Source: a beta proteobacterium AAP51 (GTDB lineage Bacteria; Pseudomonadota; Gammaproteobacteria; Burkholderiales; Burkholderiaceae_C). Taken from it: DNA of 64,000 nt. The notes below the pieces were generated by a model. That model saw only the letters and a program-made list of their open reading frames with translations. It was not told where the DNA came from and ran no database searches. Both the position numbers and the translations under genes were made by a program. Positions 2,650-64,000 of the stretch are shown piece after piece. The stretch lies in the NCBI GenBank assembly GCA_001295905.1, contig LJHT01000096.1, positions 1-64,000 of the forward strand. Reading direction: 5' to 3'. The stretch's first letter is position 1. Each line of letters starts with the position of its first letter.

Positions 2650-4967
2650 ACACCTCGGAACTGCTGGACCAGTTCATCGTCGAGGCACGCGAGTGCCTGG
2701 AACAGATCGGCCGCCGCCTGCTGGACGTGGAACGCGCGCCGGGCAACACCGAACTGCTGAACGACCTTTTCCGCCAGGTGCACACGCTCAAGGGCAACTG
2801 CGGTCTGTTCGAGTTCAAGGCGCTGGAACGCGTGGTGCATGCCGGCGAAGACGTGCTCGACCGCGTGCGCAACGGCACCCTGCACTACAGCCCCGGCATT
2901 GCCGATGCGCTGCTGGCGGCCATGGACTACACCGCCGAACTGGTGGACGCCATCGCCGAAGAAGGCCAGCTGCCGGCCAGCGCCGACCACCGCGCCGGTG
3001 AACTGGCCGACGGGCTGCGCGTGCATCTGAATGCCCCCGCGAACACGTCGCTCGGCGCGGCCCCGGGCACCGATGCACACGCCGCCGAGCCGCCACCCGT
3101 GCCGGCCTGGTGCGCCGCCGTGCCGGCCGAACTGCAGCGCACGGGCTGCGTGGCCCTGGTGTACCGGCCCGAGCCCGAGTGTTTCTTCAAGGGCGAAGAC
3201 CCCTGGCACCTGGCCCGCGCCACGCCCGGCCTGCAGCACCTGGCCGTGCGCCCGGTGGCCCCCTGGCCGGCGGGCGAGGCCTTCGATTGCTATGTCTGCA
3301 ACCTGGAGTTGCTGCTGGTGAGCGAGGCGCCGCTCGCCTGCGTGGAAGAGCACTTCCGCTACGTGCCCGAGCAGACGGCGCTGCATGTCTTCACCACTGC
3401 CCCGGCAGGCACCGCAGCCGCCACGGCCGCCGGCCCCACCGCCCCCGCGTCCCCGAGCATCGCGGCAGCCGCGCTGGTGCAGCAACGCCTGCAACGCCTG
3501 TGGCAAGACCAATGCACGCAGCTGGCCCGCCCCGGCGTGGCCGCCGGCACCGTGGCTGCGGTGCGCGAGACCCTGCAGCGCCTGGCCCGCGTGATGCAGC
3601 CCGCGCCCGAGACCAGCGCGCTGCAGGCCCTGACCGGGCTGCCGCCCGGCGCCCCTGCCTTGCTGGCCTGGGCCGAAGGCCTGCGGGCCCCGGCCGCATC
3701 GGCCAGCGCGAACGCCAGCGCGGCCAGCGCCGCCCCCACGGGCCTGGCCCCCTTCGAAGGGCGCCGCAGCGGCGGCAGCGAAGAGACCGCCGGTCAGCGC
3801 GTACTGAAGGTCTCGCAGGACAAGATCGACCGGCTGATGGAGCTCATCGGCGAGATGGTGGTGGCCAAGAACGCCCTGCCCTACCTGGCCCAGCGCGCCG
3901 AAGAGGTGTTCCAGCAACGCGAGCTGGCGCGCGAGATCAAGACCCAGTACTCGGTGATCAACCGCATCGCCGAAGACATGCAGCACGCCATCATGCAGGT
4001 GCGCATGCTGCCGGTGGGCACGGTGTTCCAGCGCTTCGCGCGGCTGGTGCGCGACATCAGCAAGAAGCTCGGCAAGGAAGTCAACCTCGTCATCGAAGGC
4101 GAAGACACCGAGGCCGACAAGAACGTCATCGAGAGCCTGGCCGACCCGCTGATCCACATCCTGCGCAACAGCCTCGACCACGGCATCGAGACACCGGCCG
4201 TGCGCGTGGCCGCCGGCAAGCCCGCGGCGGGCACGCTGCGCGTGGCGGCCTGCCAGGAAGGCGACCGCGTCATCCTCGACATCAGCGACGACGGCGCCGG
4301 CATCGACACCGAGCGCGTGCGCGCCAAGGCCGTGGAACGCGGCCTGATTCCGGCCGACCGCGCGGCCACGCTGAGCGAACACGAAGCGGCCCAGCTCGTC
4401 TTCCTGCCCGGCTTCAGCACCGCCGACACCATCAGCGACCTCTCGGGCCGCGGCGTCGGCATGGATGTGGTGCGCTCGGCGGTGGAACGCATCAACGGCA
4501 GCGTGGAACTCAGCAGCACGCGCGGCCAGGGCACGCGCATCCGGCTGGCGCTGCCGCTGTCGATGGCCGTCACCAACGTGATGATGATCGAGTGTGCCGG
4601 CCGCCGCTTCGGCGTGCCGATGGACCTGATCGTCGAGACCGTGCGCGTGCCGGCCGAGGACATCCACCATTTCAAGCGTGCGCAGACCGTGGTGCTGCGC
4701 GGCCGCGTGGTGCCGCTGCGCGCGCTGGCGGAACTGCTGGAACTGGGCGAGCCGCCGCGCCGCAACGCCGACGGCGAGCACGCCGTGCTGGTGGTGCGCC
4801 TGGGCGGCGAGACGCTGGGCCTGCTGGTGGACGACTTCCATGGCACCAGCGACATCATCCTCAAGCCCCTGGAAGGCGTGCTCTCGGGCCTGGTGGGCTT
4901 TGCGGGCACCGCGCTGATGGGCGACGGCAGCGTGCTGATGATCCTCAACCCCAAGGAGCTTGCGTGA
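2646..4967 (+). CDS. cheA: CheA chemotaxis histidine kinase
   Basis: A 773-residue cytoplasmic kinase that autophosphorylates in response to receptor arrays and phosphorylates CheY and CheB. Domains in order: Hpt with His46 in QVHTLKGN; a roughly 300-residue middle region with an unusual receiver-docking-like segment (CFFKGEDPWHL) followed by an Ala/Pro-rich linker; the P3 dimerisation helices starting near residue 386; the HATPase with N-box HILRNSLDHGIE near 500, G1 DDGAGID near 546 and G2 GRGVGMDVV near 600; and a C-terminal CheW-like domain. There is no fused receiver. The start overlaps the preceding receiver by ATGA and the stop overlaps the next small gene (TGATG). The middle region is less conserved than the catalytic core and may set partner specificity. 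Confidence 0.95.
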   Translation: MNTSELLDQFIVEARECLEQIGRRLLDVERAPGNTELLNDLFRQVHTLKGNCGLFEFKALERVVHAGEDVLDRVRNGTLHYSPGIADALLAAMDYTAELVDAIAEEGQLPASADHRAGELADGLRVHLNAPANTSLGAAPGTDAHAAEPPPVPAWCAAVPAELQRTGCVALVYRPEPECFFKGEDPWHLARATPGLQHLAVRPVAPWPAGEAFDCYVCNLELLLVSEAPLACVEEHFRYVPEQTALHVFTTAPAGTAAATAAGPTAPASPSIAAAALVQQRLQRLWQDQCTQLARPGVAAGTVAAVRETLQRLARVMQPAPETSALQALTGLPPGAPALLAWAEGLRAPAASASANASAASAAPTGLAPFEGRRSGGSEETAGQRVLKVSQDKIDRLMELIGEMVVAKNALPYLAQRAEEVFQQRELAREIKTQYSVINRIAEDMQHAIMQVRMLPVGTVFQRFARLVRDISKKLGKEVNLVIEGEDTEADKNVIESLADPLIHILRNSLDHGIETPAVRVAAGKPAAGTLRVAACQEGDRVILDISDDGAGIDTERVRAKAVERGLIPADRAATLSEHEAAQLVFLPGFSTADTISDLSGRGVGMDVVRSAVERINGSVELSSTRGQGTRIRLALPLSMAVTNVMMIECAGRRFGVPMDLIVETVRVPAEDIHHFKRAQTVVLRGRVVPLRALAELLELGEPPRRNADGEHAVLVVRLGGETLGLLVDDFHGTSDIILKPLEGVLSGLVGFAGTALMGDGSVLMILNPKELA

Positions 4968-5194
4968 TGGGCATCCGCTACCTCAAGAAACACGCCGCAC
5001 TGGAAGGCCACGTGCGCGTGGACGACGCCGAGGCGCTGGCACGGTGGATCACCGCGCAGCCGACGCCGGTCGTCCACCTGGGCAAGTGCGAGCACGTGCA
5101 CGCGGCCGTGCTGCAGGTGCTGCTGGCGCTGAAGCCGCGCATGGTGGCGCCGCCACCCGACGCGACATTGGCCGCGGTGCTGGCCGAGGCCTGA
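4967..5194 (+). CDS. Small STAS-like protein of the chemosensory operon
   Basis: A 75-residue product starting MGIRYLKKHAALEGHV, its ATG overlapping the cheA stop as TGATG. The segment VVHLGKCEHVHAAVLQVLLA has the pattern of the second strand and helix of STAS domains, where anti-anti-sigma proteins have a D-S-[ST]-G phosphorylation site; here that position reads H-A-A-V, with no Ser or Thr. If it is a STAS fold it is probably a binding module and not a phospho-switch. Very tight coupling to cheA supports a real gene and a role in the kinase complex. The STAS assignment rests on a short pattern and is tentative; that it is a coding gene is fairly sure. Confidence 0.6.
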   Translation: MGIRYLKKHAALEGHVRVDDAEALARWITAQPTPVVHLGKCEHVHAAVLQVLLALKPRMVAPPPDATLAAVLAEA

Positions 5195-54362: not shown

Positions 54363-54452
54363 GGGCGCTGCTTTCGGGGTTGGTGAAGAGTGGGGGCTGA
54401 TGGGGACGGATGGGGACGGATGAAGCGCGCCGGGCCTGCGCAAGAGTCGTGC

Positions 54453-55901
54453 CTAGAGGCCCAGCCGGCCCGTGGCCAGCAGCGTGGCGGCCACGGCCGC
54501 CAGGCCCACCAGCAAGGCCAGCACGGCCCATTCCCAGCGCGTGAACACGCGCTGCTGCCGCTGGCGTTTCGCCCAGGCGTAGAGCAGCACGCCCGGCGCG
54601 TACAGCAAGGCGCTGAGCAGCAGGTACTTGATGCCGGCGGCGAACAGCAGCCACACGCAATACACCGTGGCCAGCGCGGCCACGGGCAGGTCGCCGCGGT
54701 GCTGGCCCGGCAAGGCGCCTTCGCCCCGGGCGGCCAGCAGCAAGCCATAGGCGGCGCTGAAGAGGTAGGGCAGCAGGATCATCGCTGTGGACAGCGAGAT
54801 CAAGGCCAGGTAGGAGGCCTCGGACCACAGCGTCAGCAGCAGGAAGAGCTGCACCATGCCGTTGGTGACCCACAGCGCGTGGGCCGGCACGCCGCGCGCA
54901 TTGCTCTGCGCCAGCCAAGCCGGCATCACGCCGCCGCCGGCCGGCGTGAACAGCGATTCGGCGGCCAGCAGCATCCAGGCCAGGAAGCCTCCGCCCACCG
55001 AGACGATGAGGCCCAGGTAGATGAGCACCGCGCCCCAGGTGCCCACGGCGCTTTCCAGCACGCCGGCCATCGAAGGGTTCTTCAGCGCCGCCAGCTCGGG
55101 CTGGCTGAAGATGCCCAGCGACAGCAGCGACACCGCCATCAGCAGCAGCAAGCACACCAGGAAGCCGATGAAGGTGGCGCGGCCCACGTCTTCGCGCCGC
55201 TGGGCGCGCGCCGAATAGACGCTGGCGCCTTCCACGCCGATGAACACCCACACCGTCACGAGCATGGTGCTCTTCACCTGGTCGAGCAGCGAGCCCAGGG
55301 CTGGCGCGCCCCAGAAGCCGAGCTGGAAGGTTTCCACCTTGAAGGCCATGGCCACCAGCGCGATGAACAGCAGCAGCGGCACCAGCTTGGCCGCGGTGAC
55401 CACGGCGTTCAGCACCACCGCGCCCTGAATGCCGCGCAGCACCAGGAAGTGCACCACCCACAGCACCACCGAAGCCCCGGCAATGGCGGCCGGTGTGTTG
55501 CCTTCGCCGAAAACGGGGAAGAAGTAGCCCAGCGCGCCGAAGGCCGCCACCAGGTAGCCCACGTTGCCCACCCAGGCGCTGACCCAGTAGCCCCAGGCGG
55601 CGTTGAAGCCCACGTACTCGCCCGAGAGGGCGCGGGCATAGGCGAAGACGCCGTTGTCGAGTGCCGGCTTGCGCAGCGAGAGCATCTGGAACACGCGCAC
55701 CAGCAGCAGCATGCCGATGCCGGTGATGGTCCAGCCGATGAGGATGGCCCCCGCGCCGGCATGGGCGGCCATGTTCTGCGGCAGGCCGAAGATGCCGCTG
55801 CCGACGATGGAGCCCACCACCAGCGCCACCAGCAGGCCCAGGCTCAGGCGCTTGGCGGGGGCGGCGGGGGCGGCAGGGGCGGGCGCGGCGGCGGTGCTCA
55901 T
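54453..55901 (-). CDS. arcD: APC-family amino acid antiporter (arginine/ornithine type)
   Basis: A 482-residue permease with about 12-13 hydrophobic segments. The start of TM1, VALVVGSIVGSGIFGLPQNM, is the amino acid-polyamine-organocation superfamily motif, and the protein resembles the arginine/ornithine and lysine antiporter subgroup. As first gene of the arc operon it would import arginine in exchange for ornithine. The short N-terminus is Ala/Pro-rich. ATG 55901. The divergent gap to the P-type ATPase has no evident FNR-type box. Confidence 0.92.
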   Translation of the reverse strand: MSTAAAPAPAAPAAPAKRLSLGLLVALVVGSIVGSGIFGLPQNMAAHAGAGAILIGWTITGIGMLLLVRVFQMLSLRKPALDNGVFAYARALSGEYVGFNAAWGYWVSAWVGNVGYLVAAFGALGYFFPVFGEGNTPAAIAGASVVLWVVHFLVLRGIQGAVVLNAVVTAAKLVPLLLFIALVAMAFKVETFQLGFWGAPALGSLLDQVKSTMLVTVWVFIGVEGASVYSARAQRREDVGRATFIGFLVCLLLLMAVSLLSLGIFSQPELAALKNPSMAGVLESAVGTWGAVLIYLGLIVSVGGGFLAWMLLAAESLFTPAGGGVMPAWLAQSNARGVPAHALWVTNGMVQLFLLLTLWSEASYLALISLSTAMILLPYLFSAAYGLLLAARGEGALPGQHRGDLPVAALATVYCVWLLFAAGIKYLLLSALLYAPGVLLYAWAKRQRQQRVFTRWEWAVLALLVGLAAVAATLLATGRLGL

Positions 55902-55948
55902 GGCCCGAGGCTCGCAGCGAGCGCCACGGAGCGTCTGTTCGCGGCCGT

Positions 55949-55974
55949 ACGGACGCCACCGATTCGGCCCCGCA
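55949..55974 (+). promoter_or_regulatory. Copy 2 of the 26-bp conserved upstream element (arcD/P-type ATPase gap)
   Basis: Matches the element at 49053-49078 at 22 of 26 positions, same strand. It ends 95 bp before the proposed ATPase ATG, nearly the spacing seen for the PRC-barrel gene, so the ATPase is the more likely target; the divergent arcD gene starts 48 bp on the other side and could also be affected. Confidence 0.5.
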
Positions 55975-56069
55975 TGGTCGAGCCCGGCACGGCCGATGCG
56001 CACACCTGCGTCATGCAGGGTTGCCGCGCTGCCCTGCCCGCCCTCTTTCCACCGTCCACCGCCATTCCC

Positions 56070-58967
56070 ATGGGCCGCCATGGCCTGCCGCCCATGCCCC
56101 CAATTTCCAGCGCCGATGCCGCCATGGCCGAGGCCGAGGCCCTGGCCCAGCAGCTGCAGACCGACCTGCACCGCGGCCTGAGCGCGGCAGAAGCGGCGCG
56201 CCGCCTGCAGGCCGAAGGCCCCAACGAGCTGCGCGCGCTGCCTGCCGTGCCGGCCTGGCGCCGCGCGCTGGCGCAGCTGCAAGACCCGCTGGTCTACCTG
56301 CTGGCGGGGGCTGCGGCCGTGGCGCTGGCCGCGTGGTGGTTCGAGGGCCGCGGGCGGCCCGGCGTGGCGGGCTGGCCGCTGGACGCCCTCGTCATCGCCG
56401 TGGTGGTGCTGCTCAATGCCGTGCTGGGCTGGCTGCAGGAAGCCAAGGCCGCGCAGGCGGTGGCGGCGCTGGCGCGCATGAGCACCGCCACCTCGGCCGT
56501 GCTGCGCGCCGGCGTGCTGGCACGCGTGCCCAGCGCCGAGCTGGTGCTGGGCGACGTGCTCGTGCTGGCCGAAGGCGACGCCGTGGGCGCCGACGCGCGC
56601 CTGACCCAGGCCGCCACGCTGATGCTGCTGGAAGCACCGCTCACGGGCGAGAGCGTGGCGGTGCTGAAAGACGCGGCACGGCTGCACGCGCCGGCCGCGC
56701 TGGCCGACCGCCTGAACATGGTGTTCAAGGGCACGGCCGTGGCCCAGGGCCACGGGCATGCCATCGTCACCGCCACCGGCATGCACACCGAGCTGGGCAG
56801 CATCGCCACGCTGCTGGACACCACGCCCGACGCGCCCACGCCGCTGCAGCGCGACATGGCGCAGCTGGGCCGCGTGCTGGGCATCGCCGCGCTGGTGACG
56901 GCCGCGGTGGTGGTGGGCGCGGTGCTGCTGCTGTCGAACATCCGCGGCGTGGCCGATGTCGTCACCGTGCTGCTGCTGGGCGTTTCACTGGCCGTGGCCG
57001 CCGTGCCCGAAGGCCTGCCGGCCATCTTGTCGGTGGTGTTGGCGCTGGGCGTGCGGCGCATGTCGCGGCACCACGCCATCGTCAAGCAGCTGGCTTCGGT
57101 GGAAACACTGGGCTCGGCCTCGGTCATCGCCACCGACAAGACCGGCACGCTCACCCGCGGCGAGATGACGGTGCAGCGGGTGATGACGCTCTCGGGCCGC
57201 AGCGACCTCACCGGCGTGGGCTATGCCCCCGAGGGCCGCGCCGAAAGCGAGGGCGCGCCCTTGCCCGAAGGCCCGCTGCGCAGCGAGCTGGCTGCGGTGC
57301 TGCAGGCCGGCAGCCTGGCGGGCAACGCGCACTTGCAGCAGGCGGCCGACGGCAGCTGGGGCATACAGGGCGACCCCACCGAAGCCGCCTTCCTGGTGGC
57401 GGCGGCCAAGCTGCACGGCCACCCTGGTGCCGATGGGCACTGGCAACGCCTGAGTGAGAACCCCTTCACGTCGCAGCGCAAGATGATGTCGGTGCTGGTG
57501 CGCGCACCCAACGACGCCCCCGCCGACGGCGGCGCCCGCGTGCTCTTTGCCAAGGGCGCGCCCGACGTGCTGCTGGCCCGCTGCACGCACGCTCGCCGGG
57601 GCACGGGCACCGAGCTGCTGGACGAAGCCCTGCGCCAACGCCTGACGGCCGAGGTGGCCGCCATGGCCGGCGACGCGCTGCGCACGCTGGCCGTGGCCCG
57701 CCGCGTGCTGCACGCCGGCACGGCGGCGCCACCGGCCGGCCATGCCGCCCTGGCCGAGGCCGCAGGCCCGGCGCTGGAACACGGGCTGGAATACCTGGGC
57801 TGCGCCGGCCTCATCGACCCGCCGCGCAAAGAAGCCGCTGCCGCCATCGCGCAGGCGCATGGCGCCGGCATCCGCGTGCTGATGATCACCGGCGACCACC
57901 CGCGCACGGCCGGGCGCATCGCGGCCGACCTGGGCATCACCGAAGCCGGCGCCCGCGTGCTCACCGGGCATGAGCTCGACGGCATGGACGAGGCCGCCTT
58001 CAGCGCCGCCGCGTTGCAGACCTCGGTGTTCGCACGCGTGGCACCGCAGCACAAGCTGCGCATCGTGCGTGCCCTGCAGGCCAGCGGGCAGGTGGTGGCG
58101 ATGACGGGCGACGGCGTCAACGACGCGCCGGCCCTGAAGGCCGCCGACATTGGCGTGGCCATGGGCCTGGCAGGCACCGAGGTCAGCAAGCAGGCGGCAC
58201 GCATGATCCTGGCCGACGACCACTTCGCCACACTGGTGCTGGCGGTGCGCGAAGGGCGCGGCGTGCTCGACAACATCCGCAAGTTCCTGCGCTACGTGCT
58301 CAGCTCGAACCTCGCCGAGGTGCTGACCGTCTTCCTGGGCGTGGTGGGGGCCGGCGTCATCGGCCTGCAGGCGACCGGCACGGGCGATGGCGGTGCGCTG
58401 GTGCTGCCGCTGCTGGCCACGCAGATCTTGTGGATCAACCTCGTCACCGATACCGGGCCGGCGCTGGCCCTGGGCGTGGACCCCATCGCCGACGACGTGA
58501 TGCAGCGCCAGCCGCGCCCGCGCGATCAGCCCCTGGTGGACAGCCGCATGGGGCTGGCGGTGCTGGAAGGCGGCGTGGTGATGGCCTTGCTGACGCTGCT
58601 GACGCTGGACCTCTTCCTGCCCGGCGGGCTGATAGCCACCGTGCCTGCCTGGCTGGCCAGCGGCCCGCCCAGCCTGGAGCGCGCGCGCACCGCCGCCTTC
58701 ACCGTGCTGGTGCTGACGCAGCTGTTCAACGCCTTCAATGCACGCTCGGCCACGGCCTCGGCCTTGCGCGGCGCCTTCACGAACCCCTGGCTCTGGGCCG
58801 CGGTGGCGCTGTCGGCCGGGCTGCAGGTGGCGGTGGTGCATGCGCCCTTCCTGAACCTGGCCTTCGGCACGGTGCCCCTCTCGGCGGCGCAGTGGGGCGT
58901 GTGCGTGGCGATGGCCAGCGGCGTGCTGTGTTTCGGTGAGGTGCGCAAGCTGATGCGGCGGCGCTAG
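56070..58967 (+). CDS. P-type cation-transporting ATPase, type II
   Basis: A ~965-residue inner-membrane pump. Motifs: actuator APLTGESVAV, M4 AAVPEGLPAIL, phosphorylation DKTGTLT at about Asp356, KGAPDVLL, TGDHPRT, GDGVNDAPALKAADIG. M6 reads INLVTDTGPALALGVDP, keeping the Asn and Asp expected of calcium/manganese-type pumps, in contrast to the CtpF-like paralogue at 22354. The start is uncertain between ATG 56070 and ATG 56094; neither has a clear ribosome-binding site. It is divergent from the arc operon. Ca or Mn export is likely from the M6 residues but not proven. Confidence 0.88.
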   Translation: MGRHGLPPMPPISSADAAMAEAEALAQQLQTDLHRGLSAAEAARRLQAEGPNELRALPAVPAWRRALAQLQDPLVYLLAGAAAVALAAWWFEGRGRPGVAGWPLDALVIAVVVLLNAVLGWLQEAKAAQAVAALARMSTATSAVLRAGVLARVPSAELVLGDVLVLAEGDAVGADARLTQAATLMLLEAPLTGESVAVLKDAARLHAPAALADRLNMVFKGTAVAQGHGHAIVTATGMHTELGSIATLLDTTPDAPTPLQRDMAQLGRVLGIAALVTAAVVVGAVLLLSNIRGVADVVTVLLLGVSLAVAAVPEGLPAILSVVLALGVRRMSRHHAIVKQLASVETLGSASVIATDKTGTLTRGEMTVQRVMTLSGRSDLTGVGYAPEGRAESEGAPLPEGPLRSELAAVLQAGSLAGNAHLQQAADGSWGIQGDPTEAAFLVAAAKLHGHPGADGHWQRLSENPFTSQRKMMSVLVRAPNDAPADGGARVLFAKGAPDVLLARCTHARRGTGTELLDEALRQRLTAEVAAMAGDALRTLAVARRVLHAGTAAPPAGHAALAEAAGPALEHGLEYLGCAGLIDPPRKEAAAAIAQAHGAGIRVLMITGDHPRTAGRIAADLGITEAGARVLTGHELDGMDEAAFSAAALQTSVFARVAPQHKLRIVRALQASGQVVAMTGDGVNDAPALKAADIGVAMGLAGTEVSKQAARMILADDHFATLVLAVREGRGVLDNIRKFLRYVLSSNLAEVLTVFLGVVGAGVIGLQATGTGDGGALVLPLLATQILWINLVTDTGPALALGVDPIADDVMQRQPRPRDQPLVDSRMGLAVLEGGVVMALLTLLTLDLFLPGGLIATVPAWLASGPPSLERARTAAFTVLVLTQLFNAFNARSATASALRGAFTNPWLWAAVALSAGLQVAVVHAPFLNLAFGTVPLSAAQWGVCVAMASGVLCFGEVRKLMRRR

Positions 58968-58991: not shown

Positions 58992-59021
58992 AGGCCTCTC
59001 ACGGTCTATCAAGGCCTCTCA
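58992..59021. repeat. Short duplication overlapping the phnC-like stop codon
   Basis: AGGCCTCTCA occurs at 58992-59001 and again at 59012-59021. On the minus strand the pair reads GAGAGGCCTTGA (containing the phnC-like stop) and then GAGAGGCCTCGA, 20 bp apart. It is a recent-looking duplication in the 41-bp convergent gap. Confidence 0.5.
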
Positions 59022-59797
59022 TACAGCGCCTGCAGCAGCGGCGGCGTCACCTCGGCCAGCGGGCGGTCCCAGCGCACGCGGCCTTCGGCCATGCCGATGA
59101 CGCGCGTGGCCAGCAGCGGCAGCAGTTCGAGGTCGTGCACCACGGTCAGCAAGGTGCGGCCGGGTTCGGCGGCGATGGCGCGCAAGGCCACGCACACCTC
59201 GCGCGTGGCGGCGGGGTCCAGCGCCGAGGTGGGCTCGTCGGCCAGCAGGAGGCGGGGGCGCTGCAGCTGCACGCGGGCCAGCGCCACCTTCTGCCGCTCG
59301 CCGCCCGACAGGCGGTCGGCCCGAATGTGGCGGCGCTCGGCCAGGCCCAGCTCGGCCAGGGCCGCATCGGCTTCGGCCACCAGCGCAGGCGGGTACCAGC
59401 GGCACCAGCTGCGCAGCGCCTGCGCGCCCTGCAGCCGCGCCAGCGCGCCGATCAGCACGTTCTCGCGCGCGCTCAGGCGCGGCACGAGGTGCAGGCCCTG
59501 CATCAGCAGGCCGGTGTCGCGGCGCCAGGCGCGGCGCTCTTGCCGGGTCAGCATGCGCGACGCGTACCCGCCCTCGCCCGCCAGGCCCGGGCCCGTGCAA
59601 CGCCCCAGCACCTGCACCTGGCCCTGCCGTGCCTCGGTGAGAGCGCCGATCACCTTCAGCAGCGTGCTCTTGCCGGCGCCGTTGGGGCCCACGATGGCCA
59701 CCCGCTCGCCGGGCGCGATGGCCAGGCGCGGCACGTCCAGCAGCACGCGGCCGTCCACCGCCACCTGCACGCCCTCCAGACGCACGGCTTCGTTCAC
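59009..59797 (-). CDS. phnC: PhnC-like ABC transporter ATPase
   Basis: A 262-residue ATPase of the phosphonate/phosphite importer type: Walker A GPNGAGKST near residue 37, signature DRLSGGERQKVALAR, Walker B LLLADEPTSALDP, and switch VVHDLELL. The PhnC-typical insert with LLMQGLHLVPRLSARENVL is present, with Met in place of the usual Phe-Gln start. It follows the permease by 10 bp and is the last gene of the arsS operon. Confidence 0.88.
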   Translation of the reverse strand: MNEAVRLEGVQVAVDGRVLLDVPRLAIAPGERVAIVGPNGAGKSTLLKVIGALTEARQGQVQVLGRCTGPGLAGEGGYASRMLTRQERRAWRRDTGLLMQGLHLVPRLSARENVLIGALARLQGAQALRSWCRWYPPALVAEADAALAELGLAERRHIRADRLSGGERQKVALARVQLQRPRLLLADEPTSALDPAATREVCVALRAIAAEPGRTLLTVVHDLELLPLLATRVIGMAEGRVRWDRPLAEVTPPLLQALYERP

Positions 59798-59807
59798 GGC
59801 AACGGCC

Positions 59808-60713
59808 TCACAGCAAGGCCTGTCGGATGCGGCGCGAGAGCGCGTCGAACACCATCACCAGCGCCACCACCACGATGAGCAGCGTGGCCAGCCGGCTCCA
59901 CTGGAACAGGCTCACGGCCTCGCTGATGAGCAGCCCCAGCCCGCCGGCGCCTATCAGCCCGAGGATGGTGGAATCGCGGATGTTGAATTCCCACACATAG
60001 AGATGGTGGCTGACGAACTGCGGCAGCACCGAAGGCCACACGCCGTGGAAGAAGACCTGCGCTTCGCCCGCACCGGTGGCGCGCACGGCGTCCACCGCGG
60101 CCATGTCCAGGGATTCGATGCTTTCGGCGAAGAGCTTGCCGTAGGTGCCCATGGAATGCAGCGCAATGGCCAGCACGCCGGCGGTGGGCCCCAGGCCCAC
60201 GATGCCCACGAGGATGAGCCCGAACACCAGCGTGTGCACCGCGCGCGAGACATCCAGCACGCCCTTGGCGGCCCAGGCCAGCGGGCGCGGCGCGCGCAGG
60301 TTGCGCGCCACCAGCAGCGCCAGCGGCAGCGCCATCAGCGCCGCCAGCAGCGAGCCCAGCGTGGCGATCTGGAAGGTCACCCAGGTGGCGCGCGCCACCG
60401 CGGCCAGGAAGCTGGCTTCGACCTCGCGCCGGTTCTCCACGCGCAGCAGGGTGCCGTCGTCGCTGCGGTACTCCAGCCTTTCGGGGCCGAACCAGGCGTC
60501 CAGGAAGCTGGGCCGGGCGAAGTCGCCCACGGTCTTCAGCAGGTTCTCCCAGGGGTTGCGGCCGAAGCTGAGGTCGCCTGCCGCTACCAGGGTGCCCAGG
60601 CACAGCCCCACCAGCCCCCCATACAGCAGCACCAGCAGGGCAAAGCCTGCGCGGCCTGCGGGCCACGGCGCGCGCCAGGGCTGCTGCCCTGCGCGCTGCA
60701 CCTCGCCCGTCAC
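59808..60713 (-). CDS. phnE: PhnE-like ABC transporter permease
   Basis: A 301-residue membrane permease with about six hydrophobic segments. The cytoplasmic coupling loop is GAGEAQVFFHGVWPSVLPQF (EAA loop), and the N-terminal loop FARPSFLDAW is typical of PhnE. Its start overlaps the phnD-like stop by four bases and it is followed at once by the ATPase. One permease gene implies a homodimer. Confidence 0.88.
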   Translation of the reverse strand: MTGEVQRAGQQPWRAPWPAGRAGFALLVLLYGGLVGLCLGTLVAAGDLSFGRNPWENLLKTVGDFARPSFLDAWFGPERLEYRSDDGTLLRVENRREVEASFLAAVARATWVTFQIATLGSLLAALMALPLALLVARNLRAPRPLAWAAKGVLDVSRAVHTLVFGLILVGIVGLGPTAGVLAIALHSMGTYGKLFAESIESLDMAAVDAVRATGAGEAQVFFHGVWPSVLPQFVSHHLYVWEFNIRDSTILGLIGAGGLGLLISEAVSLFQWSRLATLLIVVVALVMVFDALSRRIRQALL

Positions 60714-61612
60714 CGGGCGCCCAGCTTGCCGGTGGCCAGGCCGGCGTCGCGGATGGGCTTGTAGAAGCTGTTGTCGCGGGCCACGAAGCCGGTGTAGTTC
60801 GCCGGCAGCAGCTGGGGCTGGCGGGCCAGCAGCGGGCCCACCTCGGCCAGCGCGGCCTGCAGCCGCTGCACGAAGGCGGTGTCGCGGGCCAGGGCCGCGC
60901 TCACGGCGAAGGCATCGTTGGGCAGCGGGGCCGATTGCCAGATGACCTTGCTGCGCGCGGCACTGATGAGGCCCTGCGAGATCATCACGTCGCGGTTGCG
61001 GTTGAAGTCGGCCCCGGCGTCCAGCTGGCCGGCCGTCACCTGCGTCTGGATGGCCTGGTGCTTGGTGTACAGCACGCGGTCGAAGTGTTTCTCGGGGTCG
61101 ATGCCGCGCTTCTGGAATTCATGCACCGGGATCAGGTAGCCCGAGGTGGAGCCCTTGTCGCCGAAGGCGAAGCTGCGGCCCTGGCCCTTGGGGCCGAGCA
61201 GGTCGTCGATGCTGTTCAGCCCCGAATCGGGGTGCGTGACGATCAGCGCGAAGTACTCCGGCTTGCCCTGGTAGAGGATGGTCGAGACCACCTGCGCGCC
61301 GCTGAAGTGGTGCGCCAGCACATAGCCCCAGGGGCCCATCAGCGCGAGGTCGGTCTCGCCGTTGGCCAGGCTCTTGGCCAGGCCTTCCCAGCTGTCGACG
61401 GTGCGCAGTTCCACCGGCCGGCCCAGGCGCTGCGCGAGGTGCGCCGCCAGCGGGCGGTAGGTGGCGTCGTTCTTTTCGCGGTCGGGCTGGAACATGCCCA
61501 CGCCGAACTTCAAGGGGCCGGTGGTCGGCGTAGCTTGCGCCCAGGCATTGCCGGCCAGCGTGAGCAGGCTGCCCAGCGCAAGCAGGCTGGCTTGGCGTCG
61601 ATCGTGTTTCAT
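60710..61612 (-). CDS. phnD: PhnD-like phosphonate/phosphite/phosphate-type binding protein
   Basis: A 300-residue periplasmic binding protein. The signal has a twin-arginine-like start (MKHDRRQASLLALGSLLTLA, GNAWAQ). Then the PhnD fold: FGVGMFQPDREKNDATYRPL, GETDLALMGPWGYVLA, FGDKGSTSGYLIPVHEF, and DAGADFNRNRD. The segment DKGSTSGYL lines the oxyanion pocket in phosphite/phosphonate binders. The ligand is open: phosphonate, phosphite, phosphate or an arsenical. It lies 99 bp after the DUF547 gene; TATACC at 61691-61686 (minus) may be a weak -10 of its own. Confidence 0.9.
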   Translation of the reverse strand: MKHDRRQASLLALGSLLTLAGNAWAQATPTTGPLKFGVGMFQPDREKNDATYRPLAAHLAQRLGRPVELRTVDSWEGLAKSLANGETDLALMGPWGYVLAHHFSGAQVVSTILYQGKPEYFALIVTHPDSGLNSIDDLLGPKGQGRSFAFGDKGSTSGYLIPVHEFQKRGIDPEKHFDRVLYTKHQAIQTQVTAGQLDAGADFNRNRDVMISQGLISAARSKVIWQSAPLPNDAFAVSAALARDTAFVQRLQAALAEVGPLLARQPQLLPANYTGFVARDNSFYKPIRDAGLATGKLGAR

Positions 61613-61711: not shown

Positions 61712-62551
61712 TCAGGCATCGTTCAAGGCCCAGTCGTAGTCGGTGTAGGCGATGCTCACGTTGCCGGCACGCAGGCGTTCGCGGTCGGCCGGGGCATCGG
61801 CCAGCACGTCGGCGTAGCGCGCGGCGAAAGCCGGCAGCGAGACTACGCCACGGTGGCCGAGGCGGAAGTCTTCGCCGTACCAGTCGAAGATCTTCGAGAG
61901 CTCCAGCCGCCCGCGCTGCGGGTTGTAGCGGTTGCGCGTGCGGTCGCTCATGAAGCGCAACGTCTGCTCGTCCATCTGGGCGTCCAGCTTTGCGGCGACG
62001 AAGGCTTCCTCACGCAGCGCCGGGCAGCCGATGCTGGCGCAGTTCACGGCGAAGTGCACGCGCGGGTCGTCGTAGTCGCCGCGCTTGCGCAGCATTTCGT
62101 GCTCGATGTCGTCCAGCGAAACCTGGGTGCCCAGCAGCGAAATCCACTTCGGCTTCCAGGGGCTGCTCAGCAGGCTGCCGAGTTCCTTGATCGACTTCAA
62201 GTTCGGGTAGCGCGTGAGGATCAGCTCCACCGTGCTGGCGTTGTAGGCGTTGATGAGGAAGGCCTGGCGCTCGGCGCGGGTCCAGCCGCCGAAGGTGGCG
62301 GGTGCGACGGCGGTCAGGCTGTCGAGGTAGGCCTTCAGGGCCGGGCGGTCGGTCTTGAAGGCGGCGTAGGCCACCTGCGTGGCCTGCCCGCCGCGCAGCA
62401 GCCGCACGTGCTTGCGCAGCAGGGCCGTCCAGGCCGCGTGGCTGTGGTCGAAGCCGGCAGTCTGGGCCCGTGATGGCCGGTGCAGCGCGGACAGCGACCA
62501 CGCGGCCGCGAGCCCCCAGCCCAGGCCCTGGCGCCGGTTCAAGGCCTTCAT
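61712..62551 (-). CDS. Exported DUF547-domain protein
   Basis: A 279-residue protein with a twin-arginine-like signal (MKALNRRQGLGWGLAAAWSL) followed by a DUF547 domain: FLINAYNASTVELILTRYPN, then NCASIGCPALREEAF, with a conserved His in RVHFAVNCAS. DUF547 has a papain-like/transglutaminase-like Cys-His layout, but its activity is unknown. The ATG at 62551 overlaps the arsS stop by ATGA, so it is translationally coupled to that radical SAM enzyme. From memory, DUF547 genes accompany arsS-type genes in other bacteria. A periplasmic role linked to arsenolipids or arsenosugars is speculation. Confidence 0.85.
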   Translation of the reverse strand: MKALNRRQGLGWGLAAAWSLSALHRPSRAQTAGFDHSHAAWTALLRKHVRLLRGGQATQVAYAAFKTDRPALKAYLDSLTAVAPATFGGWTRAERQAFLINAYNASTVELILTRYPNLKSIKELGSLLSSPWKPKWISLLGTQVSLDDIEHEMLRKRGDYDDPRVHFAVNCASIGCPALREEAFVAAKLDAQMDEQTLRFMSDRTRNRYNPQRGRLELSKIFDWYGEDFRLGHRGVVSLPAFAARYADVLADAPADRERLRAGNVSIAYTDYDWALNDA

Positions 62552-63585
62552 GCCTGCTCCTGGGCGGGCTGGCGCTGCACCCCCTGCACCGGCTGCTGCG
62601 GCACGGCGGCCGCGGGCACCTCGGCTTCCAGCGCGCCGCCACAGCTGCTGCCCTGCCCGGCGGTGCAGCCATAGCAGTGGTCGGCGATGCGGATGTCCGT
62701 ACCCGCCGGGTCTTGGCCCAGCAGGTCGCGCAGGTGGGGCCGGGCCTGCCCGGCCAGGCTGGCGGGCAGGCCCAGCATCTGGTTGAAATCGCAGTCGTAG
62801 AGATGCCCCTGCCAGTCGACGCTGAGCAGGCTGCGGCACATCACGGTGTCCAGGTTCTCGGCGCGGTAGCTGCTGCGCAGCAGCTGCATGTAGGCCCCGA
62901 AGCTGCCCTTGCTGACCAGCGTGCTACCGAAGCGCTGCACCGGCATGTTCGTCAGCGCGAAGAGGTGGTCGAAGCGGATGCCGAAGTGCAGCAGCAGTTC
63001 GCGCTTGTAGTCGGCTTCCAGGGGGCCCTGGGGCGGCGGCAGCACGGGACCCTGCGGGTTGTAGACGAGGTTCAGCACCAGGCCGCTGCCGGCGCTGGCA
63101 TAGCCCAGCGCATTGAGCTGGCGCAGGCCTGCGATGCTGCGTTCGAAGACGCCGTCGCCGCGCTGACGGTCGACGTTGGCCGGCGAGTAACAAGGCAGCG
63201 AGGCGGTGATCTCCACCCCGTGCTCGGCGAGGAAGGCCGCCAGGTCTTCCTGGCCCGGTTCGGACAGGATGGTGAGGTTGCAGCGGTCGATGACGCGCAC
63301 GCCTGAAGCGCGGGCCTGGCGCACCAGGCTGCGGAAATGCAGGTTCAGTTCGGGGGCGCCGCCGGTGAGGTCGAGGGTGGCGATGCGGCGCTCGCGCAGC
63401 ACCCGCAGCACCAGCGCGATGGTCTCGGCGTCCATCATCTCGGTGCGCTGCGGGCTGGCCGCCACGTGGCAGTGCAGGCAGCTCTGGTTGCACTTGTAGC
63501 CGAGGTTGACCTGAAGGGTGTCGAGCGAACGCCGCCGGATGGGCGGGAAGTCGGTGGCGGCAAGCAGGGGCAGCGTGGCGTGCAT
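62548..63585 (-). CDS. arsS: ArsS-type radical SAM enzyme (arsenosugar biosynthesis family)
   Basis: A 345-residue radical SAM protein. The iron-sulfur motif is CNQSCLHCH (CxxxCxxC) near residue 32, followed by DLTGGAPELNLHF, the SAM-site GGxP-like motif. The C-terminal region has CRSLLSVDWQGHLYDCDFNQ and the Cys-rich HCYGCTAGQGSSCGGA, characteristic of the family whose cyanobacterial member joins dimethylarsenite and SAM to make an arsenosugar precursor. Some members are selenoproteins at the C-terminus; here Cys is used and no in-frame TGA precedes the stop. No arsM methyltransferase lies in the window. First gene of the minus-strand operon, divergent from an ECF sigma gene. Confidence 0.9.
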   Translation of the reverse strand: MHATLPLLAATDFPPIRRRSLDTLQVNLGYKCNQSCLHCHVAASPQRTEMMDAETIALVLRVLRERRIATLDLTGGAPELNLHFRSLVRQARASGVRVIDRCNLTILSEPGQEDLAAFLAEHGVEITASLPCYSPANVDRQRGDGVFERSIAGLRQLNALGYASAGSGLVLNLVYNPQGPVLPPPQGPLEADYKRELLLHFGIRFDHLFALTNMPVQRFGSTLVSKGSFGAYMQLLRSSYRAENLDTVMCRSLLSVDWQGHLYDCDFNQMLGLPASLAGQARPHLRDLLGQDPAGTDIRIADHCYGCTAGQGSSCGGALEAEVPAAAVPQQPVQGVQRQPAQEQA

Positions 63586-63619
63586 CGTGGCTTCGGGGGA
63601 AAAGGTGCGACGCCAGCTA

Positions 63620-63645
63620 GTCGTTCGGGCCGGCCGAAGGGTTAC
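63620..63645 (-). promoter_or_regulatory. Candidate ECF-sigma promoter for the arsS operon
   Basis: On the minus strand GTAACC (63645-63640) is followed after 16 bp by CGAC (63623-63620), the spacing of ECF promoters. It gives a transcript start near 63613, about 28 bp before the arsS ATG. The -35 matches the GTAACC reported, as I recall, for the SigF-type group in Caulobacter. A CGAA also occurs at N12. Confidence 0.55.
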
Positions 63646-63723
63646 AGGCCCCGGGCTGAGCCCGCTGCGGTGAGCTGCACAATGCGGCGCGCCCCCGCCT
63701 TCCTCCTCCCCCCGCAGGCCGAT

Positions 63724-63749
63724 GTAACCCCAGGCCCCTGTGCAGCGAA
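63724..63749 (+). promoter_or_regulatory. Second GTAACC-N16-CGAA element, facing the sigma gene
   Basis: GTAACC (63724-63729), 16 bp, then CGAA (63746-63749). It faces the sigma gene, but the CGAA abuts the ATG at 63750, so a normally spaced transcript start would fall inside the coding sequence. Either the motif is fortuitous, or it is a decoy or site used in another way. No other promoter for the sigma gene was found in the 164-bp gap. Confidence 0.4.
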
Positions 63750-64000
63750 ATGCCTGTTGACGACAGCCCCGGCGACTTCGAGTCAGCCCTCAAGCCGCTG
63801 TGGCTGCGCGCCCAGGCGGGCGACGACGCAGCCTACCGGCATTGCCTGGGGCTGCTCGCCGCGCGGCTGCGCGCGTACTTGAAGCGCCGCCTCTCGGGCT
63901 TGCCCGACGAGGTGGAAGACCTGGTTCAGGAGACCCTGTTGGCCTTGCATCTGCAACGTGGCACCTACGACCCATCGCTGACCGTCAGCGCATGGGCGGT
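63750..64000 (+). CDS. ECF-type RNA polymerase sigma factor (3' truncated by window)
   Basis: The first 83 codons of a sigma-70 family protein: MPVDDSPGDFESALKPLWLR, a helical ~QAGDDAAYRHCLGLLAARLR region, then the region 2 core DEVEDLVQETLLALHLQRGT and YDPSLTVSAWAV at the window edge. VEDLVQETLLALH is the core-binding/-10-recognition helix of ECF sigmas. The YDP...AWA ending resembles the SigF/NrsF-associated group, whose anti-sigma (DUF1109) usually follows; that would lie beyond the window. Divergent from arsS, with matching promoter-like elements between. Confidence 0.88.
   Translation, partial: MPVDDSPGDFESALKPLWLRAQAGDDAAYRHCLGLLAARLRAYLKRRLSGLPDEVEDLVQETLLALHLQRGTYDPSLTVSAWA

Follow-up and report, generated by a model that had tools for sequence, protein, structure and literature searches.

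Putative Sigma-F/NrsF Control of an arsS Operon in the Beta Proteobacterium AAP51

The arsS operon, the sigF-nrsF pair and the gap between them

The window analysed here is a stretch of 64,000 nucleotides from the beta proteobacterium AAP51 (contig LJHT01000096.1, positions 1 to 64,000), at whose right-hand end a radical SAM gene, arsS, and an ECF sigma factor gene are read away from each other. The features concerned are as follows.

59009..59797, minus strand: PhnC-like ABC ATPase (TIGR02315 173.1 bits, under the equivalog cut-off of 266.1)
59808..60713, minus strand: PhnE-like ABC permease (TIGR01097 240.3 bits, cut-off 216.7)
60710..61612, minus strand: PhnD-like periplasmic binding protein of an ABC importer (PF12974 188.3 bits; TIGR01098 146.2 bits, cut-off 112.05)
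61712..62551, minus strand: DUF547 protein (PF04784 88.7 bits), its start overlapping the arsS stop, probably in a shared operon
62548..63585, minus strand: arsS, radical SAM protein (TIGR04167 452.6 bits, cut-off 300; Pfam DUF3641 and Radical_SAM)
63620..63645, minus strand: putative sigma-F-type promoter of arsS, assigned by sequence and relatives (GTAACC 63645-63640, N16, CGAC 63623-63620)
63724..63749, plus strand: putative sigma-F-type promoter element of sigF (GTAACC 63724-63729, N16, CGAA 63746-63749)
63750..64000, plus strand, continuing to contig position 64394: first part of a sigF-like ECF sigma gene (Sigma70_r2, r4_2; PRK12536 210 bits)
Contig 64391-65026, outside the window, directly 3' of sigF: nrsF, anti-sigma gene (PF06532; locus L009)

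The score above the curated TIGR04167 cut-off, together with the cluster motif CX3CX2C at C32/C36/C39, identifies the arsS product as a predicted ArsS protein, which shares this radical SAM family, above the same curated cut-off, with the ArsS of arsenosugar synthesis. In cyanobacteria, the ArsM-ArsS pair carries out arsenosugar synthesis; to our knowledge, the bacterial role of ArsS-family enzymes beyond the cyanobacteria is largely untested. The present operon differs from the cyanobacterial pair in its DUF547 and Phn-type importer genes, in its proposed control by a sigma factor, and in that no ArsM in this genome rises above the NF008823 cut-off (best 48.3 against 263 bits with this one model; a divergent ArsM is possible). 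The original prediction spoke of an arsenosugar-type operon. Because no ArsM reaches the cut-off and the family name was the sole basis of the term, that label should be dropped until tested. Beside the Phn-type importer genes, a long open frame runs on the plus strand (54390-58967), the second half of which resembles, by eye, a cation P-type ATPase.

The contig extends 1276 bases past the end of the window, completing the sigma gene and nrsF, and an anti-sigma gene is indeed present where the original prediction had suggested looking for one. The sigma protein, of 214 amino acids, matches PF04542 and PF08281 (regions 2 and 4), the models listed for it including none for region 1 or region 3, and this short protein with regions 2 and 4 is an ECF (group 4) sigma factor. 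The nrsF start overlaps the sigF stop by 4 bases. NrsF scores 196.4 bits with PF06532 (cut-off 26.8) and holds exactly two cysteines, C128 and C178; two conserved cysteines, C129/C179, are described for ECF16 anti-sigma factors in the Brucella study (PMC8315932). By sequence, the adjacent NrsF/DUF1109 anti-sigma gene, the two cysteines and the element GTAACC-N16-CGAA (CGAC on the arsS side) place the pair in the ECF16/sigma-F group. Further hallmarks of that group are an anti-sigma factor with six transmembrane helices and responsiveness to metals or oxidants. Both proteins fall below the NCBIfam cut-offs (sigF 210 against 250 bits for PRK12536; NrsF 135.4 against 300 bits for NF042994), and they are classed as related to those families, not filed as equivalogs.

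The gap, 63586-63749, measures 164 bp from the arsS start codon (which ends at 63585 on the minus strand) to the sigma gene ATG at 63750 on the plus strand. Two GTAACC hexamers face outward within it, each with CGA exactly 16 nt away on its own strand; coordinates and shuffles agree here with the original prediction, which had described outward hexamers with CGA(A/C) 16 bp downstream. Its reading of this arrangement as ECF promoter geometry also holds, and can be made more specific, the geometry being that of the published sigma-F (ECF16) promoter. These two matches to GTAACC-N16-CGA are the only ones in the 64-kb window (shuffle mean 0.05; none of 100 shuffles gave as many as two). Across the 5.1-Mb genome, GTAACC and CGA occur at spacers of 15-17 in 17 matches, three of them at spacer 16, and two of these three lie in this gap; the third (C39:46499) sits inside an open frame on each strand, 167 and 192 codons long. 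The only zero-mismatch GTAACC-N16-CGAA in the genome list is the site at 63724. With one mismatch allowed, the genome scan gave 112 sites, against 114 with a reversed-pattern control, a result that carries no information on a wider regulon. The possibility that the boxes arose in the gap by chance was rejected on the shuffles, the whole-genome counts and the comparison of arsS upstream regions given below.

Assuming that transcription begins 6-8 nt beyond CGA, the minus-strand element would provide arsS with a leader of about 29 nt, the sensible leader that had been foreseen; by eye, this leader has no strong ribosome site in the window. The element on the sigF side gives no normal leader for the ATG at 63750, because its CGAA touches that codon and the sigma gene has no other in-frame ATG. 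The window gene has no alternative in-frame start upstream, and no ATG, GTG or TTG follows within its first 43 codons. A start 6-8 nt past this -10 element would fall within the reading frame, and the expected transcript would lack that start codon. CGA(A) touches or overlaps an in-frame ATG of sigF in nine relatives as well (L166, L169, L171, L175, L177, L180, L186, L240 and L242). Among the 28 best-scoring family sigF loci, 24 have a GTAAC box, spacers of 15-17 being allowed, no more than 40 nt from codon 9, and the box precedes sigF in 16 of 24 distinct genes, one of which (L187) is apparently misaligned. Either translation begins in an unusual way, or sigma-F transcripts do not serve full-length SigF, or the spacing between -10 and +1 differs from the usual; a -10 element that touches the sigF start codon is not easily reconciled with simple autoregulation.

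Conservation of the element before arsS in relatives

The arsS genes compared came from named genomes (of 574 confirmed relatives, the 80 that scored best were kept), from 60 genomes of the same genus, 26 of which have an arsS above cut-off, and from 200 family genomes spread over 141 genera, 25 of which have one. NrsF was found in 22 of the 60 genus genomes, 37 of the 200 family genomes and 10 of the 40 searched among the named loci, NrsF having been sought in the genomes of 40 of those 80 loci. Subtraction of six exact duplicates and four partial or edge loci (L041, L052, L195, L205) from 113 arsS loci left 103; 23 family loci brought the number to 126 (duplicate L249 dropped), and L273 to 127. 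Setting aside 32 loci in genomes without an NrsF search gave 95 arsS upstream regions for the adjacency test, in which sigF/nrsF counts as nearby when one retrieved stretch, of some 5 kb at most, includes it together with arsS. One of the partial loci (G051:C20, L195) consists of arsS-like fragments in several pieces; about 5.5 kb away is a sigF-nrsF pair with a thioredoxin-like gene opposite.

The exact element stands 59-83 nt before arsS in 14 of the 16 loci with sigF/nrsF nearby, against 4 of the 79 others, namely 3 of 20 with NrsF elsewhere in the genome and 1 of 59 with no NrsF found. Fisher's test gives p values of 1.6e-11 (nearby versus the rest) and 0.048 (elsewhere versus absent), which ignore kinship and are therefore too small. 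An independent-pairs test found four supported pairs (10 on all branches), with on average 2.2 agreeing and 0.0 disagreeing and a median p of 0.5, and the kinship-corrected statistics are too thin to confirm the switch by themselves. On a quick arsS tree, the GTAACC label changes 10 times, at least 5 of these changes being forced by starred branches; the coupling between arsS and the element has therefore changed several times. The two exceptions among the 16 are L032, whose exact element lies 876 bp upstream, and L192, with GTAACG-N16-CGT at -72 (one mismatch), which was labelled by hand as GTAACC class in the tree and counted as lacking the exact element in the 95-locus test.

The spacing is equally constant. 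When GTAAC was sought within 150 nt of arsS with CGA not required, all 19 sites in 19 loci had CG(A/T) at exactly 16 nt; 15 of these loci had been picked because sigF is adjacent and 4 because they carry the motif, and L032, with its distant box, was left out. In the sigF-linked subset the spacer is 16 at 15 of 15 sites in 15 loci. Boxes in relatives lie at -58 to -93 of arsS and share the consensus TGTAACC-N16-CG(A/T)(A/C)T, with a spacer mostly unconserved apart from two G/C columns that reach 1.1 bits.

The divergent arrangement itself recurs. Eight of the 200 family genomes have both NrsF and arsS; the two are divergent neighbours in 6 of the 8, and all 6 have boxes on both sides. These six comprise two from the own genus (also in the genus sample) and one each from genera g12, g60, g76 and g98, so that the pair is found in five genera. 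Of the remaining two, G112 has the element with arsS on a separate contig, and G086 has a different class, GTAAG. The original prediction had proposed searching related genomes for this sigma gene beside arsS; divergent pairs are found there with conserved GTAACC elements, and the case that it named against itself, the same gene pair with GTAACC not conserved, did not appear among the relatives examined.

An alternative to a sigma-F switch is that arsS and sigF are chance neighbours, the GTAACC elements belonging to sigF alone and arsS having an ordinary promoter of its own. In its favour, most arsS genes have no element (the exact form occurs in 13 of 103 upstream regions), and arsS and NrsF co-occur weakly in the family (arsS in 8 of 37 genomes with NrsF against 17 of 163 without). 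Nevertheless, the arsS-side element is distinct from that of sigF and is retained at -59 to -83 in 14 sigF-linked loci, with the invariant spacer described above. It also persists where genes intervene (L150, with sigF 3.6 kb away, L154 and L156) and in three loci where NrsF lies on another contig (L155, L016, L266). We regard mere coincidence as very improbable.

In G003 (L150/L010), the genes lying between sigF and arsS encode a response regulator and a histidine kinase, and both boxes are retained. The motif-bearing arsS with no NrsF found, L152 (G010), comes from a genome 78% complete with the contig cut, and stands opposite a gene for an MNIO (bufferin enzyme) that has a box of its own. 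G041 (L160), 99% complete and with no NrsF, carries GTTACC-N16-CGT where its relatives have GTAACC-N16-CGT, and its arsS branches with the sigF-linked ones; this box looks as if it had decayed after loss of sigF.

A second element class and the remaining alternatives

Another element, GTAAG-N16/17-CG(A/T), is present in 30 of the 103 arsS upstream regions (shuffle mean 0.48; reverse strand 1) and in 42 of 126 after the family loci are added. For 27 of the 30 its distance upstream of arsS falls between 52 and 112 nt, and its fuller form, by eye, is TGTAAG(R)AT...CGACYAA. Among the publications listed for this box, none was of use by its title. This class sits before arsS genes that have no sigma-F box (e.g., L196, L198, L200, L047 and L063), among them the second arsS of this very genome (C97, L158), with the element at -67. 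In the loci listed, the two classes do not occur together within 200 nt of any one arsS. Near some GTAAG loci there is a TIGR02943-type sigma gene (L196, L197, L200 and L078, of which L196, L200 and L078 were tested by profile). A link between GTAAG and TIGR02943 through autoregulation was rejected: the 39 listed sigma ORFs, scanned from 250 nt before each ORF to 200 nt into it, showed no GTAAG-N16/17-CG(A/T), and the shared neighbourhood remains as a lead.

It might accordingly be asked whether the arsS of the window is mainly driven by another ECF sigma factor, of TIGR02943 type, with its GTAACC box as an accessory or a relic. Such a sigma factor is encoded in this genome above cut-off, and GTAAG replaces GTAACC before many arsS genes; but the window arsS has the GTAACC class only, GTAAG being on the second copy, and the two classes were not seen together before one arsS in the loci listed. 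This alternative appears very unlikely. A palindromic operator for a separate dimeric regulator, suggested by the reading GGTTAC...GTAACC on one strand, was rejected as similarly far-fetched, since the distance between hexamers ranges from tens of bases to kilobases among loci while each keeps CG(A/T) at 16 nt, and no regulator other than sigF/nrsF was noticed in common among the genes identified in the loci.

Known sigma-F systems and the proposed switch

In Caulobacter crescentus, the sigma-F site is GTAACC-N16-CGAA; 5' RACE located the transcription starts of two targets, and the need for the elements was demonstrated with promoter fusions (PMC3511200). The sigma-F/NrsF (ECF16) system of that species resembles the present one in its sigF-nrsF operon, its DUF1109/NrsF anti-sigma and the occurrence of GTAACC-N16-CGAA on both sigF and targets (PMC3511200). 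Its targets are DUF2282-DUF692-DUF2063-DoxX (bufferin) operons and the MsrP (YedY) gene (PMC3511200), whereas arsS is the proposed target here; its regulon is copper-induced, and the sigF mutant is copper-sensitive (PMC8224329). No arsS was found in Caulobacter, TIGR04167 at E 1e-60 having matched only Synechococcus among the control genomes. Brucella BcrS/AbcS and other ECF16 systems (EcfF/OsrA, Azospira SigF) are alike in the adjacent target operon and the two anti-sigma cysteines, and in autoregulation, reported for them and proposed here (PMC8315932). The ECF16 consensus quoted for Brucella, (T/C)GTAAC-N17-CGAA, has the same register as GTAACC-N16-CGAA, and the Brucella target is a methionine-rich protein with MsrPQ homologues acting against hypochlorite, not arsS (PMC8315932). 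In Cupriavidus metallidurans, the gigPABT/rpoQ-rsqA divergon likewise has an ECF sigma gene and an anti-sigma gene divergent from an operon, which is metal-induced there (PMC10304878); this gig cluster is the same kind of gene cluster as that of Caulobacter (PMC8224329). The target there is gig, for which that source does not demonstrate RpoQ dependence, and the string "arsen" is absent from its main text (PMC10304878). Sigma and NrsF genes are also among the neighbours of Buf1 bufferin clusters, in a source whose main text does not contain "arsen" (PMC12452194).

Among the relatives compared here, the partner gene opposite or beside sigF varies. The order in G028 is bufferin precursor-MNIO-DUF2063-DoxX followed by sigF-nrsF-GGDEF-arsS, with boxes before the bufferin gene and, with one mismatch, before arsS. 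A bufferin-like precursor (by eye) adjoins the boxes at sigF/nrsF both in G036 and in G258, the box of the latter being GTAACT, and the arsS of G258 (L016) has its box on a different contig. G051 and G052 have a thioredoxin-like protein (by eye) at the sigF locus. These neighbourhoods suggest that arsS has entered a regulon whose other members handle thiols and metals. Because these boxes also stand before bufferin-type and thioredoxin-like genes in relatives, the term "dedicated" in the original prediction was too strong. The bufferin operon of this genome was considered as a sigma-F target and rejected: the only MNIO operon found (C115, L284; MNIO 4284-5171) has a GTAAG-type box at 3915 and no GTAACC box.

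Taken as one joint judgement from sequence and comparison, it is highly likely that the gap is the divergent regulatory region of an ECF16/sigma-F system and that this arsS operon is under the control of a sigma-F/NrsF switch which also regulates itself; sigF and arsS are very probably controlled together. NrsF, a predicted membrane anti-sigma factor with two conserved cysteines, would keep the sigma factor inactive until a signal at the envelope led to its release; by analogy, that signal would be copper, another soft metal or an oxidant. The freed sigma factor would bind GTAACC-N16-CGA, and transcription would run leftward into arsS-DUF547-phnD-phnE-phnC, the presumed extent of the operon, and rightward at sigF itself. 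Of the idea that a dedicated sigma factor switches on an arsenosugar-type operon, the ECF sigma factor with its anti-sigma and conserved boxes is retained, and both adjectives should be dropped until tested. In the literature searched, which covered few subscription journals, no report of sigma-factor control of arsS or arsenosugar genes was found, in line with the earlier remark that this mode of control was not described for arsS. The sigma system appears to be of a known kind, and its use on arsS unreported.

A broader proposal, to which we would give even chances, is that the ArsS operons of Burkholderiales form part of a soft-metal/copper envelope-stress stimulon, not a stand-alone arsenic pathway. 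They would have been recruited repeatedly by two ECF systems, sigma-F/NrsF through GTAACC-N16-CG(A/T) and a second, perhaps of TIGR02943 type, through TGTAAG(R)AT...CGACYAA, the two arsS copies of this genome being split between the switches and its bufferin operon following the second. The GTAACC or GTAAG boxes would offer a simple sequence rule by which to read arsS control from genomes. If the switch is as proposed, ArsS-family enzymes would gain a control signal and regulon partners, in an anti-sigma-gated response shared with copper-binding bufferins, and the role of ArsS in this organism could be approached through its inducers and through what its product binds.
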